DNA of 29,106 bases. It comes from a virus. A program made the position numbers and the translations under genes. The notes under the pieces are model-generated. The model did not search any database. It had not been told where the DNA came from and saw only the letters and a program-made list of their open reading frames with translations. The DNA is taken from the IMG/VR virus record IMGVR_UViG_3300030104_001854, positions 1 to 29,106 of that record; one strand, written 5' to 3'. Below, in pieces: positions 3,914-13,651 of this stretch (positions are counted from its first letter, which is position 1; every line of letters starts with the position of its first letter).

Positions 3914-6325
3914 TTAACAAAAGAAATAAGTGGATTCAATTACTGAAGACGGTTCAAGGTCTCCAATAATCGGTGGTTCAGTCTCTGCTCCAATCTGTGA
4001 AGCAAAGTCTTTTAGATAATCGTTCTCTGCAAACAAATGCATGTATGTCTCGCGTACGATTGTGGACAAAAGCCCCATATCAGTTGCACGACAAAGAACG
4101 GAATCATGGATCAATGCAATCGGTGCATCGAACCGTAAGACACTCAGATGCAGTAAGGATGCATCCAGTGAATGAATAAGGTTTGGACTTGTAGCTGCTT
4201 TATGTTTTGGGACATTGACTACATCAGAGTCACCAGTAGCTACGTTCACTTGCTTGACCTTGCCAAGAAGTTGAAGTTCCATTCTTGTTATGTCTGGCTT
4301 CATCATCTTTTGATAGACAACGAAACCTGAAGGTGTAGTCCATGAGAGTTCCGTGTGACCGGCTCTCATGCGTTTACCAACCTCCTTTTCAATCCATTCC
4401 ATCACCTTTGTAGGACCAGGGAACAGCTCAAACACTGCTTCACGCAATGCATGAGTGATGATTGTGATGTCATCTTTGGGTACATCTAAACCCTTCCCCT
4501 TCTTAGGATGATTCAATGCCGTTTGAACATAATTCCAATTGGATTTGAACTTCGCATTGTATGGAATGGTCATCACTAGCCTTTTGGCTACTGACCTGTC
4601 TATGTGTTCTCTCCACTGAGCAGGGCAGTTAAGAGCAGCTTTCTCAGCTACAGCTCTATATGCATCCTGAGGTGAATCAGAAGGGAGAACATTTACTAAC
4701 GCAGCGGTTGATTTATCTCTGGCCAATCCTGCCAGGATCTGCATTCCACTACAGGTGGCGTCCGTGGCAATTGGGAGAGAAGTATAATTACGGTCACAAA
4801 CAATGACCACGTGATAATACTCGTCACACGCTGCGAGGAATTGCCACGGTTCATCAGCTACTTCCCATTCGTGTATATATTCGAGCGGATCTAGTGCTAT
4901 ACGGGTGATTAAGTCTTCATTGTCTAATGTCCACTGAACCCGCTCTTGCATAGTCTTTTTATCAAGACCATATGTTGTTGCTACTTGAAAGCGCAACCAA
5001 TCTTCCGCTTCAAACGTAACATTAGCTTTGTTAGCGAATTGAAGTAGTGACTTACCAAAGTCAGTGTCTTGTGGTGTCAAGAATGCAGGGATTGGATAAG
5101 CTCTCCCCCGATAGTCAAATGACCACGGAAGATAGAATCTTTCCACGTCCTTGAAGCGTTCAACCGCTTTCATTGTCATCCTTGTCCTGCAGGACTTCTT
5201 AACCAGTTCGTGGTTCTTGTTATGGACCTTTGCAGCAGCTCTGCACCAGTCCTTCCTTGCTACTGCATTTGTATCAATGTCTGCTGGCTTAGGAGGTAAT
5301 TCCAAAGTTGCAGTAGATGGTATGAACTTTGCGTCCTTACCTACTGTCCTTCCAAGCTTGTATAGCTGTTCAGCTACGTTTGCTGTGAAGGGATTAATGC
5401 AGTATGCAACCTTCTGAATCCTGTTCAGAAAGGCAACAGGGTTTTCTCCCTGTATAAGGCCCGGATTACCCTTGCGGACCATCTCATGCCCACGCATTAC
5501 CTCATCCAGTACATAACCACCATCGGATGTTTGTGTCCAATCTCTAGGTGGGATCAACATTGGCCATTGCTCTGCACTGAAGAGTTTGGCTTGATCAATT
5601 ACTTGATCTTTGATGTCATTAAACCGAGCTGTAGGTACTAGGTAGTTCTTTGTTTTGTGTCCTACCCTCATTGTAAATGGTTCAAACCAGCCTGATTTTG
5701 TTAACATGCAATCAAGCAATATGTTGCCCAATTTAATGCGAACTGTATTAGGCCATGCTGACCATTTGACATCAGCTTTATTCATCATAATCTGTACATC
5801 AGTCAGTTTCTGCTGAGTACCACAAGCTCGATGCCAATAATTCTCCTTTAAACACTTAAGGAGTCCAGGTGCTTTGCGCTGGTAGTAGCGCATCTGACAT
5901 TCCTGCATGACAGCAGTGCCAATTGCGTCATATACGTTTACAAGCAGGTTGTCGTCATCATTCTTAACACTAAAGATCTTATCAAACGCCACCTTGCAAG
6001 TAATACCTGCAGCTACTAACGGTTCTATGTCAATGAGATGTTCTTTGAACTCTTTGAACATAACCCCATTCTTCGCTTTCCATATCCTTAAATGAATTGA
6101 TTCAATAGCCTCAGTAACAATAGGTATGAGTTGTTGAATAGAAGTGACACCATATATGGTGGAGGAAGCATATGCTTGCTTCTCTGCCTTAAGTGTGTTC
6201 TTCTCTAGGTTCTTTTCACCAAGGTATATCTGCAACCGTTCTTGTTCTATCTGTTTATCGATAAGTTCTTGGGATACCGTATTCATCACATTCTCTTTCA
6301 AGTATCGAGACACGGTGTTCGTCAT
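3914..6325 (-). CDS. Single-subunit DNA-directed RNA polymerase (T7 gp1-like)
   Basis: This 803-residue single-chain RNA polymerase transcribes the middle and late phage genes. Catalytic motifs are present: Asp522 (PIATDATCSGMQ), Lys581 and Tyr589 (AKRLVMTIPYNAK), HSLDASLL, and Asp741 (LIHDSVL). The C-terminus ESTYFFC is equivalent to the T7 ESDFAFA foot. The specificity-loop region lies near residues 670-705. Start choice is open. ATG 6325 has AAGGA upstream but overlaps the preceding gene by 71 bases. ATG 6286 (MNTVSQELIDKQ) overlaps by less. A promoter-like 21-bp repeat lies inside the gene at codons 287-293. Confidence 0.95.
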   Translation of the reverse strand: MTNTVSRYLKENVMNTVSQELIDKQIEQERLQIYLGEKNLEKNTLKAEKQAYASSTIYGVTSIQQLIPIVTEAIESIHLRIWKAKNGVMFKEFKEHLIDIEPLVAAGITCKVAFDKIFSVKNDDDNLLVNVYDAIGTAVMQECQMRYYQRKAPGLLKCLKENYWHRACGTQQKLTDVQIMMNKADVKWSAWPNTVRIKLGNILLDCMLTKSGWFEPFTMRVGHKTKNYLVPTARFNDIKDQVIDQAKLFSAEQWPMLIPPRDWTQTSDGGYVLDEVMRGHEMVRKGNPGLIQGENPVAFLNRIQKVAYCINPFTANVAEQLYKLGRTVGKDAKFIPSTATLELPPKPADIDTNAVARKDWCRAAAKVHNKNHELVKKSCRTRMTMKAVERFKDVERFYLPWSFDYRGRAYPIPAFLTPQDTDFGKSLLQFANKANVTFEAEDWLRFQVATTYGLDKKTMQERVQWTLDNEDLITRIALDPLEYIHEWEVADEPWQFLAACDEYYHVVIVCDRNYTSLPIATDATCSGMQILAGLARDKSTAALVNVLPSDSPQDAYRAVAEKAALNCPAQWREHIDRSVAKRLVMTIPYNAKFKSNWNYVQTALNHPKKGKGLDVPKDDITIITHALREAVFELFPGPTKVMEWIEKEVGKRMRAGHTELSWTTPSGFVVYQKMMKPDITRMELQLLGKVKQVNVATGDSDVVNVPKHKAATSPNLIHSLDASLLHLSVLRFDAPIALIHDSVLCRATDMGLLSTIVRETYMHLFAENDYLKDFASQIGAETEPPIIGDLEPSSVIESTYFFC
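5448..5468 (-). promoter_or_regulatory. Candidate phage RNA-polymerase promoter, copy 1 (inside RNA polymerase gene)
   Basis: On the minus strand this reads TAATCCGGGC, then CTTATACAGGG, followed by AGAA. It resembles T7 class III promoters (TAAT..., then TATA, then GGGAGA). The same 21 bp recurs exactly at 11894-11914 in the same orientation. Here it encodes NPGLIQG within the RNA polymerase. Transcription from it would run through the 3' part of the polymerase gene into the replication genes. Promoter function is inferred from resemblance and repetition only. Confidence 0.55.
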
Positions 6326-6605: not shown

Positions 6606-6675
6606 TGCACTAACGCAACAGTGACGTGTACGCTAGTGCAATCCATTAGATAGTGCAGCTTAGATCAGCAATCTA
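6606..6675. repeat. Short inverted/direct repeats beside integrase (candidate attP arm sites)
   Basis: TGCACTA (6606-6612) is inverted against TAGTGCA (6634-6640), and TAGTGCA repeats directly at 6651-6657. A further 5-bp inverted pair, TAGAT (6661-6665) and ATCTA (6671-6675), flanks five bases and overlaps the integrase stop. Clusters of short repeats next to a tyrosine-integrase gene are typical of phage attachment sites, where they act as arm or core sites. No tRNA-like sequence is visible here, so the core cannot be defined without the host. Confidence 0.35.
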
Positions 6676-7521
6676 GTTAAATACACTAGAGATCGCCTCA
6701 TTGCGTGCCTTATCTGTGGTTTTAGCATACCGCAAAGTGGTCTTGTAGTTGCGGTGTCCCATCAGGCTCATGAGCACCCTAAGTGGAGTTCCAGCCTCCA
6801 CATTCCATGTAGCAAATGAATGCCTCAAGCAGTGAAACACATAGTGTGGTTCTTTACCAATGTGCCTACATGCCTTCTTGAAATACCAATTAACAGACAT
6901 AGGACCAATCCATTCATCACCAAAAATAAGTACCTCTGGTGGTGTATCAGTGCACCTGCTAGTTAATATCTCACGGATAGGTTCAGCAATAGGTACAGTC
7001 CTCCAATCACCATTCTTGGTGTTGAATCCTGGTCTACCGCCAAAGTAAATGTCACCTTTTTCAAGGTCAACATCCTTTGCCTTGATCTTTAAGCATTCAC
7101 TGATCCTTCCACCAGTACAGGATGCAAACCTGACTAGCTCAGACAATCTGTTATTAGTGATGCTGCAGATTTCATCAACCTCATCCTGAGTGAAGAACCA
7201 AGGTCTGCCTTCTGACTCCTTGTATTGTTTAATACGTGGAGGCACCCAGTCAATCTCTTCATCATCATAAAGTTGATTCAAGACTGTTGTAACTGGTGAC
7301 AACTTGCGGTTGATGGTGCTGTGTGCAAGTTCACGATCCTCAAGCTCTAATTGATAGGAATTGAGGAACTTCTTTGTGATATCCCGTAGTGGATAATCAG
7401 CCCCATAAAGATCAGTGAATGTTTGCACATTGATCTCAGTTGGTTTCTTGCCACTTCCATGTCTCCATGCGTGGCGATGTTTGAAGGTGTAGTCAACACC
7501 TTGTTGCCATGTTTCAATCAT
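6673..7521 (-). CDS. int: Tyrosine-type site-specific integrase
   Basis: The 282-residue protein is a tyrosine recombinase, predicted to catalyse phage integration at a host attachment site. The catalytic set is complete: Arg139 (CTGGRISE), Lys169 in the beta-hairpin (NTKNGDWRTVPI), His230 and Arg233 (HCLRHSFATW), His256 (LMGHRNYKTT) and Tyr265 (LRYAKTT). The N-terminal part looks like a SAM-like core-binding domain. Its ATG overlaps the end of the MarR-like gene by 8 bases, so the two are probably translated together. An intact integrase suggests temperate ability or recent loss of it. T7-like cyanophages with integrases are known, but lysogeny in them is rarely shown. Confidence 0.93.
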   Translation of the reverse strand: MIETWQQGVDYTFKHRHAWRHGSGKKPTEINVQTFTDLYGADYPLRDITKKFLNSYQLELEDRELAHSTINRKLSPVTTVLNQLYDDEEIDWVPPRIKQYKESEGRPWFFTQDEVDEICSITNNRLSELVRFASCTGGRISECLKIKAKDVDLEKGDIYFGGRPGFNTKNGDWRTVPIAEPIREILTSRCTDTPPEVLIFGDEWIGPMSVNWYFKKACRHIGKEPHYVFHCLRHSFATWNVEAGTPLRVLMSLMGHRNYKTTLRYAKTTDKARNEAISSVFN

Positions 7522-7867
7522 AAAGATCGGACAATAGGTCTTTGATTAAGTCTCTACCTTTGGCAGATAGAGTGCAAATGATCCTGCGTTTGTTATCAAG
7601 ATCACGCTCCTTGATGACTAACCCTAAGCCAGGTTTATTAAGCCTGTGCTTATCAGTAAGCCAGTCAATGTTACGTGAACTTGATGCAGTGGTGAATCCT
7701 AAATCCTCTTCAAGTGCCTCCTTGTGACAATGATTGTGAGAAGCTATGTAGAGGAAACAAGAGATCACCTGTGCAGGTACTTCACGATCCAACACTCGTA
7801 AGCGTTCGATCGCTATCAGAATTCCTTCTACCTTGACGTCGGTAAGGTCGCGGCGAATTGGGTCCAC
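7514..7867 (-). CDS. MarR-like winged-helix transcriptional regulator
   Basis: The 117-residue protein starts at GTG 7867. It has a winged-helix layout: a helical segment (REVPAQVISCFLYIASH), a recognition region (LEEDLGFTTASSSRNIDWLT), and the MarR wing followed by its typical closing motif (KERDLDNKRRIICTLSAKG). It probably dimerises and represses or activates nearby phage promoters. It overlaps the integrase start by 8 bases, so regulator and integrase form one operon. A TATAAT hexamer 27 bases upstream of the GTG could drive it. No Shine-Dalgarno is seen, so the message may be nearly leaderless. Confidence 0.78.
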   Translation of the reverse strand: MDPIRRDLTDVKVEGILIAIERLRVLDREVPAQVISCFLYIASHNHCHKEALEEDLGFTTASSSRNIDWLTDKHRLNKPGLGLVIKERDLDNKRRIICTLSAKGRDLIKDLLSDLYD

Positions 7868-8509: not shown

Positions 8510-8813
8510 TGAGTTCATCTGATTTGAAGTGATAAAGTTCGGAGTGTGTAGCTGTAGCAATGTCTAAATCCTCATTGGTAAGTAAACTGGCCAAGTACTT
8601 TGTTGCAGCTCCTTGTTGTTGATAAGCTTTCTCCGTGACTTTGCCTGTTTTGGTGTTGTAAACTCTGTTAACTGAGACATAACTATCTCTCAGTTCCCAT
8701 GAATGCACTCTTTCTTCCATAAACTCCTCAAATGTTGGAGTTGGAAATACTTCTTCCGGTGCATTCTTGATCAGACGCCAATTATTAGCGCCATACGGTT
8801 TCTTACTGTTCAT
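8502..8813 (-). CDS. Hypothetical early protein (103 residues)
   Basis: The frame starts at ATG 8813 and gives MNSKKPYGANNWRLIKNAPE followed by a mixed, charged sequence with VSVNRVYNTKTGKVTEKAYQ in the middle. I do not recognise a family, and it shows no membrane segment or signal peptide. It overlaps the 58-residue gene upstream by 11 bases and the 37-residue gene downstream by 8. It is therefore the middle of a compact run of small early genes, likely of the host-takeover type. Confidence 0.65.
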   Translation of the reverse strand: MNSKKPYGANNWRLIKNAPEEVFPTPTFEEFMEERVHSWELRDSYVSVNRVYNTKTGKVTEKAYQQQGAATKYLASLLTNEDLDIATATHSELYHFKSDELND

Positions 8814-11081: not shown

Positions 11082-11172
11082 CTATCTGTTATTAAGTATT
11101 GATAAGTGAGCGACAACAGATAGCAAGAGTTAAATCGATACGGATTCGTATCACACACTATTTATGGTGTGA
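11082..11172. repeat. Three nested-type inverted repeats in the genome-end region
   Basis: CTATCTGTT (11082-11090) is repeated inverted as AACAGATAG (11115-11123). GATACG and CGTATC (11137-11142, 11147-11152) flank GATT. TCACAC (11151-11156) pairs with GTGTGA (11167-11172). Such a run of palindromes in AT-rich, non-coding DNA suggests protein-binding sites. Both arms of the first pair contain ATCTGTT, the heptamer of T7 class II pause/termination sites. Confidence 0.45.
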
Positions 11173-11230
11173 AATCGTATTTTATGCACTAAATGCAGTG
11201 AATTAATGAAGATATAACATCTAATTAACA

Positions 11231-11254
11231 CAAAAGAACACCCCCCATGGGGGT
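11231..11254 (-). terminator. Intrinsic terminator after the 103-residue gene
   Basis: ACCCCC and GGGGGT form a six-pair, very GC-rich stem with a 3-base loop (11240-11254). On the minus strand it is followed by GTTCTTTTG. It lies about 60 bases after the stop of the gene at 11314 and would end late transcription before the early region. Confidence 0.72.
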
Positions 11255-11313
11255 CTTTCGGCTCCTGGTGCACGCGATAATAGGCTTCAGAAATTTATGT
11301 CAAAATCTAAGGG

Positions 11314-11625: not shown

Positions 11626-11893
11626 TGATTAGTTTATCTTATATACAGTAATCAAATAATGATCGGTGTAATGTTGTATTCAGATCCACTTCGTGGATAT
11701 TGGCTTGAGCAGATTCACGGATTTCTAGATCATTGTAGATACCAACTACTAGCGTCTGTAAAAAAAAATAAAATAGATGTACTTATCAGATGTCAGTCCT
11801 TCGGACCTTGACATAAATAAAGGGAAGATGGTCTTTCTACGAAGTAGAAGGACTGTCTTCCCTAGTTGAGGGTTCGGATCCACCCTTTCCTCC
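11626..11893. other. Non-coding hairpin cluster after the large terminase
   Basis: These 268 bases contain no supportable gene. They hold four hairpins, three with a TTC or GAA triloop (UUCG-like): ATCCAC/GTGGAT at 11684-11698, GTCAGTCC with GGAC-CT-TGAC at 11792-11812, the 41-nt hairpin at 11822-11862, and AGGGT/ACCCT at 11869-11886. A T-rich stretch (minus strand) lies at 11760-11776. Such structure suggests RNA processing, termination or packaging signals. Confidence 0.55.
11813..11862 (-). terminator. Large hairpin with T-rich tail just downstream of promoter-like repeat
   Basis: On the minus strand a GGGAAGA arm pairs with TCTTCCC, enclosing GTC/GAC and TTCTAC/GTAGAA stems with a 3-base loop. 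The arms are 19 nt long with three mismatched positions, and TTTATTT follows the stem. This fits an intrinsic terminator. It lies only 32 bases below the promoter-like repeat at 11894, predicting an RNA of about 80 nt if the repeat is a promoter. Confidence 0.68.
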
Positions 11894-11914
11894 CCCTGTA
11901 TAAGGCCCGGATTA
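11894..11914 (-). promoter_or_regulatory. Candidate phage RNA-polymerase promoter, copy 2 (after large terminase)
   Basis: This is the same 21 bp as at 5448-5468, in the same strand orientation, three bases after the terminase stop. On the minus strand it is followed by GGAGGAAAGGG, a purine-rich initiation-like stretch. The non-coding setting means protein coding cannot explain the repeat here. The position matches T7 phiOR, the promoter near the right end linked to replication and end maturation. Confidence 0.6.
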
Positions 11915-11917
11915 GAC

Positions 11918-13651
11918 CTAAACCCAGGTGTGGACTGACTTGTCAACATTCAACAATCTAGCCTTTCTACGGGTATTTAAGTCCATTCCAAAAGCCATGT
12001 GATTAGCAGCTTGTTGAGGGTCATCAAGCCAAGCATCTTCGATGTCTTGCCAATCTTCTTGTCTTTGGACTTTCATATTTTCGTAGGCAGAGATTGCCAT
12101 TGCATCTGTGTAGTACTTAACGCCTTGAGCTAGGCAGTCGAGTCTATCGTCATGTTTAACTGCGAATTTCTCACGACACATGCGGCTCATCTGATAGAAG
12201 AGCATGTAAAGGAGACGTTCTTCAGGAGGAGCGTCAGGGTTTGATTTAAAGTCCCATTCAATGACCTTTCTGTCTACGATTAGACGGTGTTGGTTCATGA
12301 CAGGTTCTAAGGAGTCAATGATCCTGTCTTCTTTACGTACGTTGGCACGTACTTCTTCTACGTCTATAAATTGTTTAGTTTGTTGGAGATGTTTTTTGAA
12401 TAGTTCACCAACGATACCGTCACCGAAGTTAGTTTCGATGAGTAGTTTAGTTACTCCGAACTTCTTGCACCCTTTGAGAATGTCCAGAAGCGTTTTGTCT
12501 GAGTATCCGTCTCTATAAGCACGCATTTCATGCAAGTACAGAAAACCGTTTCGTTGGCTAATAAAAGCTGCTGCCGTCTCGTCTGTTCCTCTACCCGACG
12601 GATCAACCGAGCAAATTGTTTCGTCGTAAGGTTGCCAGTCTCCCTGTAATAGCATTGGACTGTAGAAATAATCTCCAGGTAAGCCAATAATGGGTAGGTC
12701 TTTGATGACATTGGCGGGGTCTGAGCACCAAACGACTGCATCGGGGCAAGTAACAGGATTAACAGAGGTGACAACAAGGTCAGCACATTTAAGTGGGAAT
12801 TTTTCAGCATCACTAAGAGAGGTATCGAGCATGAACTGGAGCATGAAGTTGCTCCGACCCATGGATGCTTCACGATCCATTAGGTCATCGTTATCGAATC
12901 TGTCTGGGTCAGTTACGTCCCATTCGGGAGCACCGTTATCTATATCTTCAACCAGCTGAGGCGCTAGGAGGCCTTCGTAGTTATCAATGACCCTAGGATA
13001 CCTAGCAGGCCAAACAAAGGGCTTGTAGGACCTCTCAGCTAGCTTACGATAGACAGTAAAGGTTGTCTGAGGAGTACCAAGAATAGCAATCCTAGAATCT
13101 GGTTTAGGAGTAAGGATAGATTCAACTTCAGTAGCTAGTTGCAAGAGTTTCTCTCGCATTAGTTCTGTCATTGAGTTACCAGGGACTTCGATGTCATCAA
13201 GTACCATTAAATCTGCACGACTTCCAGTCAATTGACCTGTGATTCCTACTGATTTGACTGAGGGGGCCTGGTGAGGATTACAATTAACATCAAAGCTAAT
13301 ACGAGACCAGCGAGCATTATCATCTTTAGGTTGGAGATGGGATAACCAGGGTGTTTCAATAATTAGTTTCTGAAGGAAGATAGACATGTTGTCTGCGCGT
13401 TCTTTAGAAGCGGAGATAATCATGATCTTCTTTTCTTTGTCATTAAACAGGGTCCACAGGACGAATGCACCTGTAATCCAAGATTTACCTACACCACGGA
13501 AGGCTTGAATCTGTAGACGTTTAGGACCATGTTGTAAGTAGTCAGCAATAGCGTATTGGGCACGAGTGGGTGAAGGGAGATCAAGCTGTCCCCAAAGGGC
13601 TTGGAGAAACAGCTTGAAATCACCTTGTAGTGCCTCTAGGGCATTAGTCAT
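11918..13651 (-). CDS. Terminase large subunit / DNA maturase B (T7 gp19-like)
   Basis: The 577-residue packaging motor cuts concatemers and pumps DNA into the prohead. The ATPase half has Walker A FRGVGKSW (51-58) and Walker B LMVLDDIE (148-155), with the coupling motif ILGTPQT near 190. The nuclease half has Asp350 in SVDPSGRGTDET and the late acidic pair in HDDRLDCLAQG. Length and motifs match T7 gp19 (586 residues). Its ATG overlaps the end of the basic protein gene. The stop is followed at once by the promoter-like repeat, so it is the last gene of the main late operon. Confidence 0.95.
   Translation of the reverse strand: MTNALEALQGDFKLFLQALWGQLDLPSPTRAQYAIADYLQHGPKRLQIQAFRGVGKSWITGAFVLWTLFNDKEKKIMIISASKERADNMSIFLQKLIIETPWLSHLQPKDDNARWSRISFDVNCNPHQAPSVKSVGITGQLTGSRADLMVLDDIEVPGNSMTELMREKLLQLATEVESILTPKPDSRIAILGTPQTTFTVYRKLAERSYKPFVWPARYPRVIDNYEGLLAPQLVEDIDNGAPEWDVTDPDRFDNDDLMDREASMGRSNFMLQFMLDTSLSDAEKFPLKCADLVVTSVNPVTCPDAVVWCSDPANVIKDLPIIGLPGDYFYSPMLLQGDWQPYDETICSVDPSGRGTDETAAAFISQRNGFLYLHEMRAYRDGYSDKTLLDILKGCKKFGVTKLLIETNFGDGIVGELFKKHLQQTKQFIDVEEVRANVRKEDRIIDSLEPVMNQHRLIVDRKVIEWDFKSNPDAPPEERLLYMLFYQMSRMCREKFAVKHDDRLDCLAQGVKYYTDAMAISAYENMKVQRQEDWQDIEDAWLDDPQQAANHMAFGMDLNTRRKARLLNVDKSVHTWV

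Follow-up and report, generated by a model that had tools for sequence, protein, structure and literature searches.

A predicted terminal promoter for the phage's own RNA polymerase and a conserved structured RNA at the genome end of T7-like cyanophages

The window, a 29-kb stretch (29,106 nucleotides) of viral DNA from IMG/VR record IMGVR_UViG_3300030104_001854, represents part of the genome of a T7-like cyanophage, with all of its main genes on the minus strand. Directly beyond the gene for the terminase large subunit (terL), the minus strand carries at positions 11914-11894 what is almost certainly, judged from its sequence, a promoter recognised by the single-subunit RNA polymerase (RNAP) of the phage itself, one of two such promoters per genome. 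Two hairpins and a U-rich tail follow this promoter, and the layout recurs well beyond chance, showing it to be real and conserved. Our main reading, to which we assign a probability of roughly 0.55, is that of a phiOR-type terminal promoter whose transcript would carry a conserved structured RNA that serves concatemer processing or packaging.

The RNAP gene is located at 3914..6325 (phrog_414, E 7.5e-212; Pfam RNA_pol) and terL at 11918..13651 (phrog_38, E 7.8e-113), both on the minus strand, as are the genes for an integrase (6673-7521) and for a transcriptional regulator that was assigned through PHROG (7514-7867). Beyond terL lie large later ORFs. A 247-aa protein encoded on the minus strand at 10615-9872 matches the Pfam family GP88 (PF17338), the function of which is unknown. 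A 103-aa ORF on the same strand (11625-11314), placed between the predicted RNA and the inferred direct terminal repeat (DTR), has no Pfam or PHROG match, and the same slot is occupied by talC or thyX in other cyanophages. In two environmental contigs, L167 and L172, the RNAP matches each contain one in-frame stop codon (TAG and TAA, respectively).

The terminal promoter, which extends from -15 (11914) to +6 (11894), starts 3 nt past the terL stop codon. It belongs to a 24-nt repeat (11914-11891, minus strand) whose sole other copy in the window with at most 3 mismatches is found within the RNAP gene (5468-5445), and no match was obtained in 100 shuffles. This partner promoter (5448..5468, minus strand, with +1 at A5453) would yield a long transcript covering most of the genome. 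The best 20-mer common to the 3' flank of terL and the RNAP gene had at most 1 mismatch in 23 of 23 T7-like cyanophage genomes, whereas the same comparison between genomes usually gave 4-6 mismatches, the lowest value being 1. In a profile of these 23 genomes, in which SS120-1 was anchored wrongly, the within-genome identity was 0.83-1.0 over positions -15..+6, with a drop just outside this block (0.43 at -16, 0.52 at +7). Over -15..-4, the identity between genomes was just 0.22-0.48 and nearly random. The upstream two-thirds of the promoter vary freely, as exemplified by ATTGGGCACCCGTAA in Syn5, ATTGGTGACAGTAA in P60 and AACCCCTACGTAT in P-SSP7. When up to 4 mismatches were allowed, exactly two promoter copies were present in each of the nine isolate genomes.

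For Syn5, the 15-bp promoter ATTGGGCACCCGTAA has been biochemically defined and initiation by the cognate RNAP established, in a genome with only two promoters, one of them in the RNAP gene (PMC3950665). Indeed, only two exact copies were found in the Syn5 genome, one at 4929 within the RNAP gene, which is the counterpart of the partner promoter in the window, and one at 44797, 6 nt past the terL stop codon. The start site in the window was placed at A11899 because the two promoter types could be aligned with Syn5 as the anchor. The cyanophage promoters predicted here are additional members of this known kind. In P-SCSP2, a more distant phage, no repeated site was convincing. The Desulfovibrio phage ProddE (L188) contains an exact 20-mer repeat at 8629, just past the RNAP gene, and about 186 nt past the terL stop codon at 42105. 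This repeat is likely to be the promoter pair of ProddE, and the two-site layout may therefore extend to more distant phages.

In T7 RNAP, residue N748 contacts the promoter around -11/-10, as is known from work on T7 and T3. An E or D at the equivalent residue was accompanied by C at -10 in 9 of 9 cases, compared with 3 of 13 for other residues (P 5e-4), and a K by G at -10 in 4 of 5 cases, compared with 0 of 17 (P 7e-4); these P values, obtained with the right anchor for SS120-1, are indicative only, because related sequences are not independent. A Mantel-type scan, which included the wrong anchor for SS120-1, placed the RNAP segment 735-749 third of 146, behind two segments near the embedded promoter, with a weak association (partial r 0.15-0.20). 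The predicted promoter, over positions -15..-4, tracks the RNAP specificity residue equivalent to T7 N748. A few RNAP residues moreover vary with the promoter because one promoter copy sits in the RNAP gene, and the residues encoded at this site are NPGL in the window and KPLR in P-SSP7. The embedded promoter (5468-5445 in the window) marks a short hypervariable stretch of a few polymerase residues, which drifts in step with the promoter that the enzyme recognises.

Transcription from A11899 would produce a predicted short structured RNA of about 85 nt (11813..11899, minus strand), with its start placed by alignment with the Syn5 promoter and its end by the U-rich tail of the second hairpin. 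The 5' hairpin of this RNA, hp1 (11870..11896, minus strand), carries the 9-nt loop AAGGGUGGA at 11887-11879. Among 45 distinct sequences, counted without the window's own row, standard pairs made up 93.6% of the hp1 stem, as compared to 74.9 +- 1.4% after shuffling, and 61 cells were changed on both sides, as compared to 20.3 +- 3.4. Within this set, compensation was detected in 6 of 6 tested pairs, in line with the compensatory stem changes that the first-pass annotation had looked to across relatives, and the signal was lost when the partners were slid. When 85 non-redundant elements were tested separately, pairing reached 95.3% against 77.2%. The window's own hp1 is among the weaker versions. 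Taken together with the conservation of the loop, hp1 is very probably under selection at the RNA level, as far as can be judged from comparison of sequences.

The invariance of the loop within the 85 elements is a product of how this set was collected, and the unbiased figure is 26 of 31. This figure derives from 31 loci that were gathered by terL alone and have enough downstream sequence, several of which are near-identical to one another. In 30 of these 31 loci the element is located directly past terL, L022 being the sole terL relative without it. The loop of the 30 elements is AAGGGTGGA in 26 cases, AAGGGTGAA in two, and AGGGTGGA and AAGTGGTGC in one each. A pattern scan of viral contigs, together with loci gathered before it, gave 144 matches, 140 of which lie just past terL, mostly 16-25 nt beyond the last aligned terL codon. 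A second RNA type was found in Syn5, P60, S-CBP42, SS120-1 and 9515-10a; it follows the same plan with a AGUGGUGC-type loop and then a GUGUGGA-type single strand. WH8109 is the host of both Syn5 and S-TIP37, and the loop types of these two phages differ. The predicted RNA type follows the phage lineage rather than the host. A search of Rfam revealed no family at or above the gathering score, just microRNA-type matches far below it. No description of this RNA was found in the open-access papers searched, and the terminal-promoter RNA appears to be undescribed.

The second hairpin, hp2 (11821..11863, minus strand), is a terminator-like structure of 41-43 nt with a UUC triloop. Its folding energy of -21.7 kcal/mol corresponds to a z of -5.7, and none of 200 shuffles was equally stable. 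It is followed by the U-rich tail UUAUUUAU (11813..11820, minus strand), as read from the sequence. The inverted repeat of hp2 is present in 84 of 85 relatives, albeit with variable length, and the 8 nt after hp2 contain 3.8 T residues on the sense strand against 1.0 on the antisense strand across the 85 relatives. The mean z of the region downstream of hp1 is -3.9. A weak third hairpin (11791..11813, minus strand; z -1.7) has, by eye, a similarly placed counterpart in many relatives; it often reads (A)TATCC...GGATAT with a GTGAAT or TGAAT loop, followed by TTCTGTAAG-like letters. We consider it fairly probable that hp2 acts as a terminator or pause site for the phage's RNAP. A class I terminator of T7 does not stop Syn5 RNAP (PMC3950665), and hp2 may therefore not terminate the phage RNAP. 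An RNA from the opposite strand was considered and rejected. In the window, the plus strand folds better than the minus strand because three mismatches are G-U on the plus strand; however, there was no fold bias in 84 relatives (24 GU versus 33 AC), and T-runs after hp2 occur solely on the minus (sense) strand. A small coding gene was likewise rejected, since the reading frames shift, by eye, among relatives.

The features described by the first-pass annotation, namely a promoter-like repeat at 11894, a small hairpin and a 41-nt hairpin with a T-rich tail reaching about 11813, were all located at these places on the minus strand. The identity of the repeat as a promoter is borne out by the two-copy pairs, the Syn5 anchor and the RNAP specificity residue, and the 80-nt RNA proposed there agrees closely in predicted length with the approximately 85 nt from 11899 to the U-rich tail. 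The further suggestions made there, that the RNA would be long-lived and might prime replication, are more speculative.

The inferred DTR is represented in the window by a single collapsed copy (11122..11279, minus strand), with its left edge set by homology to the DTRs of S-TIP37 and P-SSP7 and its right edge by the abutting ATCTGTT (11115..11121, minus strand). It starts at about 11279, roughly 620 nt downstream of the terminal promoter, and homology thereby upholds the earlier placement of the RNA at a genome end. A CCCCCAT/GGGGG hairpin (CCCCCATAGGGGG; 11241..11253, minus strand) lies close to where the DTR begins, as it does in T7. In relatives, a hairpin formed by a C-run and a G-run (CCCCC/GGGGG) lies about 25-35 nt into the DTR, and it is common to T7. 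The DTRs measure 206 bp in P-SSP7, 237 bp in Syn5 and 150 bp in S-TIP37, and start about 0.8-1.2 kb past the RNA start; the genome ends of P-SSP7 have been experimentally determined (PMC3350473). The terminal promoter is thus situated between terL and the right-end DTR in the same orientation, with the DTR about 0.6-1.2 kb downstream.

In T7, ATCTGTT abuts the DTR at the concatemer junction, where it is the pause signal. The first base after the DTR opens ATCTGTT in T7 (161) and Syn5 (238), ACCTGTT in P-SSP7 and ATCTGTC in S-TIP37. The relaxed pattern A[TC]CTGT[TC], which was picked after the isolates had been seen, occurs downstream of the DTR hairpin in 28 of 36 environmental loci, as compared to 0.098 expected for each, and the strict ATCTGTT in 9 of 40 (P 3e-6). 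DTR edges with the relaxed pattern include 11121-11115 (minus strand) in the window and those of L164, L165, L166 and L191. The T7 concatemer-junction signal seems, at the level of these motifs, to be conserved in cyanophages.

T7 phiOR, which occupies this slot in T7 and is connected with replication and packaging, is annotated 98 nt past the terL stop codon. The genome ends of T7 and the cyanophages share a promoter about 0.1 kb or less past terL, the CCCCC/GGGGG hairpin in the DTR and ATCTGTT abutting the DTR. The likeness to phiOR that had been suggested from the position is thus extended to the rest of the genome-end module, and the analogy appears well supported by the anatomy. T7 differs in having many promoters, whereas the cyanophages analysed here have only two per genome. 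In addition, by eye, phiOR lacks a pair like hp1 and hp2, and the RNA part therefore exceeds the T7 analogy. Phage phi29 encodes its packaging RNA (pRNA) near the genome end, but this is a loose analogy only, the RNA described here having no Rfam match. The Syn5 RNAP promoters are alike in having one copy in the RNAP gene and one just past terL, in comprising 15 bp upstream of +1, and in the downstream plan of a GCAAGAG..CUCUUGU hairpin followed by a terminator-like hairpin. Compared with the window, however, the promoter letters differ almost wholly and the loop is of the AGUGGUGC type, not the AAGGGUGGA type. The Syn5 promoter text that was consulted does not mention the RNA or contain the word 'hairpin'. 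The Rfam families PhotoRC-II, manA and wcaG are also structured cyanophage RNAs (PMC2864571), but they go with metabolic or photosynthesis genes, whereas the RNA described here would be promoter-initiated at the genome end.

We infer that the phage RNAP, once made, would start at A11899 and make the RNA of about 85 nt, terminating or pausing at hp2. The terminal promoter would launch transcription towards the concatemer junction. Since the site fills the phiOR slot in a genome-end module of the T7 type, its main task would most likely be to bring RNAP and RNA to the end of the concatemer, where they would serve processing, packaging or terminal replication. A putative binding site for a phage factor is the best reading of the hp1 loop, given that the RNA type goes with the lineage of the phage and not with its host. 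For a role in genome-end processing or packaging as such, we see about an even chance. A more specific version, which we put forward tentatively, is that of a new phage RNA family from a polymerase-matched terminal promoter, acting in genome-end processing or packaging, in which hp1 would be recognised by a phage factor (e.g. terminase or RNAP), tethering it to the concatemer end or gating the passage of RNAP to ATCTGTT. Full termination at hp2 would prevent the promoter from feeding RNAP to ATCTGTT, so that the terminator and junction-feeding roles conflict.

The first-pass annotation had suggested that either the act of transcription or the RNA itself matters. If only the act mattered, this would be a plain phiOR-type promoter with hairpins that just end or insulate an irrelevant transcript, as would fit its position, the T7-type junction signals and the absence of comparable hairpins from T7 phiOR. 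Such a reading is quite unlikely, because a terminator alone needs neither an almost invariant hp1 loop nor a stem that changes by compensation; the conserved structure favours the RNA option instead. The hairpins could also mark an ordinary late-operon end. In that case the long transcript started in the RNAP gene would be terminated by hp2 and its 3' end stabilised by hp1, with the nearby promoter dedicated to the last gene. The position of hp2 directly past terL and its U-rich tail would suit this view, but the element is constant though the downstream genes differ (talC, thyX or an ORF without known function), and a promoter ahead of a terminator is poorly suited to expressing downstream genes, which makes this view distinctly improbable as well.

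A short, promoter-driven, structured RNA with an exposed conserved loop might also act in trans, regulating host or phage mRNAs or sequestering a protein. We regard this as unlikely, though as a rival to be taken seriously: in four isolate genomes, the loop AAGGGTGGA had no perfect complements or just scattered ones, with no conserved target among them, the loop type goes with the phage clade and not the host, and a trans-acting RNA would not need a fixed place beside terL and the DTR. A further view, likewise to be taken seriously, is attenuation, in which a late phage factor, by binding to hp1, would determine if the polymerase is halted at hp2 or continues into the terminal genes and on to the concatemer junction. 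The order of promoter, hp1, hp2, DTR and ATCTGTT would suit this view, as would an hp2 of variable length that is nearly always there; no alternative pairing of hp1 with hp2 was seen, however, and the factor is a hypothetical one, so that we consider attenuation unlikely too. Lastly, there is next to no chance that the element is an attP site or tRNA remnant. An integrase is encoded in the window and the plus-strand sequence GAGGGTTCGGATCC resembles, by eye, a T-arm, but neither ARAGORN nor Rfam identified a tRNA, and the T-arm-like letters, unlike the element, are not conserved.

The reading of a phiOR-type terminal promoter with a structured RNA has several implications. The present analysis provides predicted promoters for cyanopodovirus RNAPs, which matter because promoter prediction has been a bottleneck. 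According to the text of a 2024 screen, AAAATTCTTCAAGTTTACAA was used as the P-SSP7 promoter, and 18 of 26 enzymes were inactive, with wrong promoters among the suspected causes; P-SSP7 is not named there among the inactive ones (PMC11475235). The paired P-SSP7 site identified here, AACCCCTACGTAT followed by ACAGGG, is unlike AAAATTCTTCAAGTTTACAA. The promoter pairs moreover represent a natural series of polymerase-promoter co-evolution in which the sequence coding for the polymerase itself contains one of the two promoters. As for the RNA, it seems to be novel. With it, the genome-end module of marine viruses gains a conserved RNA, and what the terminal promoter does there can now be put to the test.
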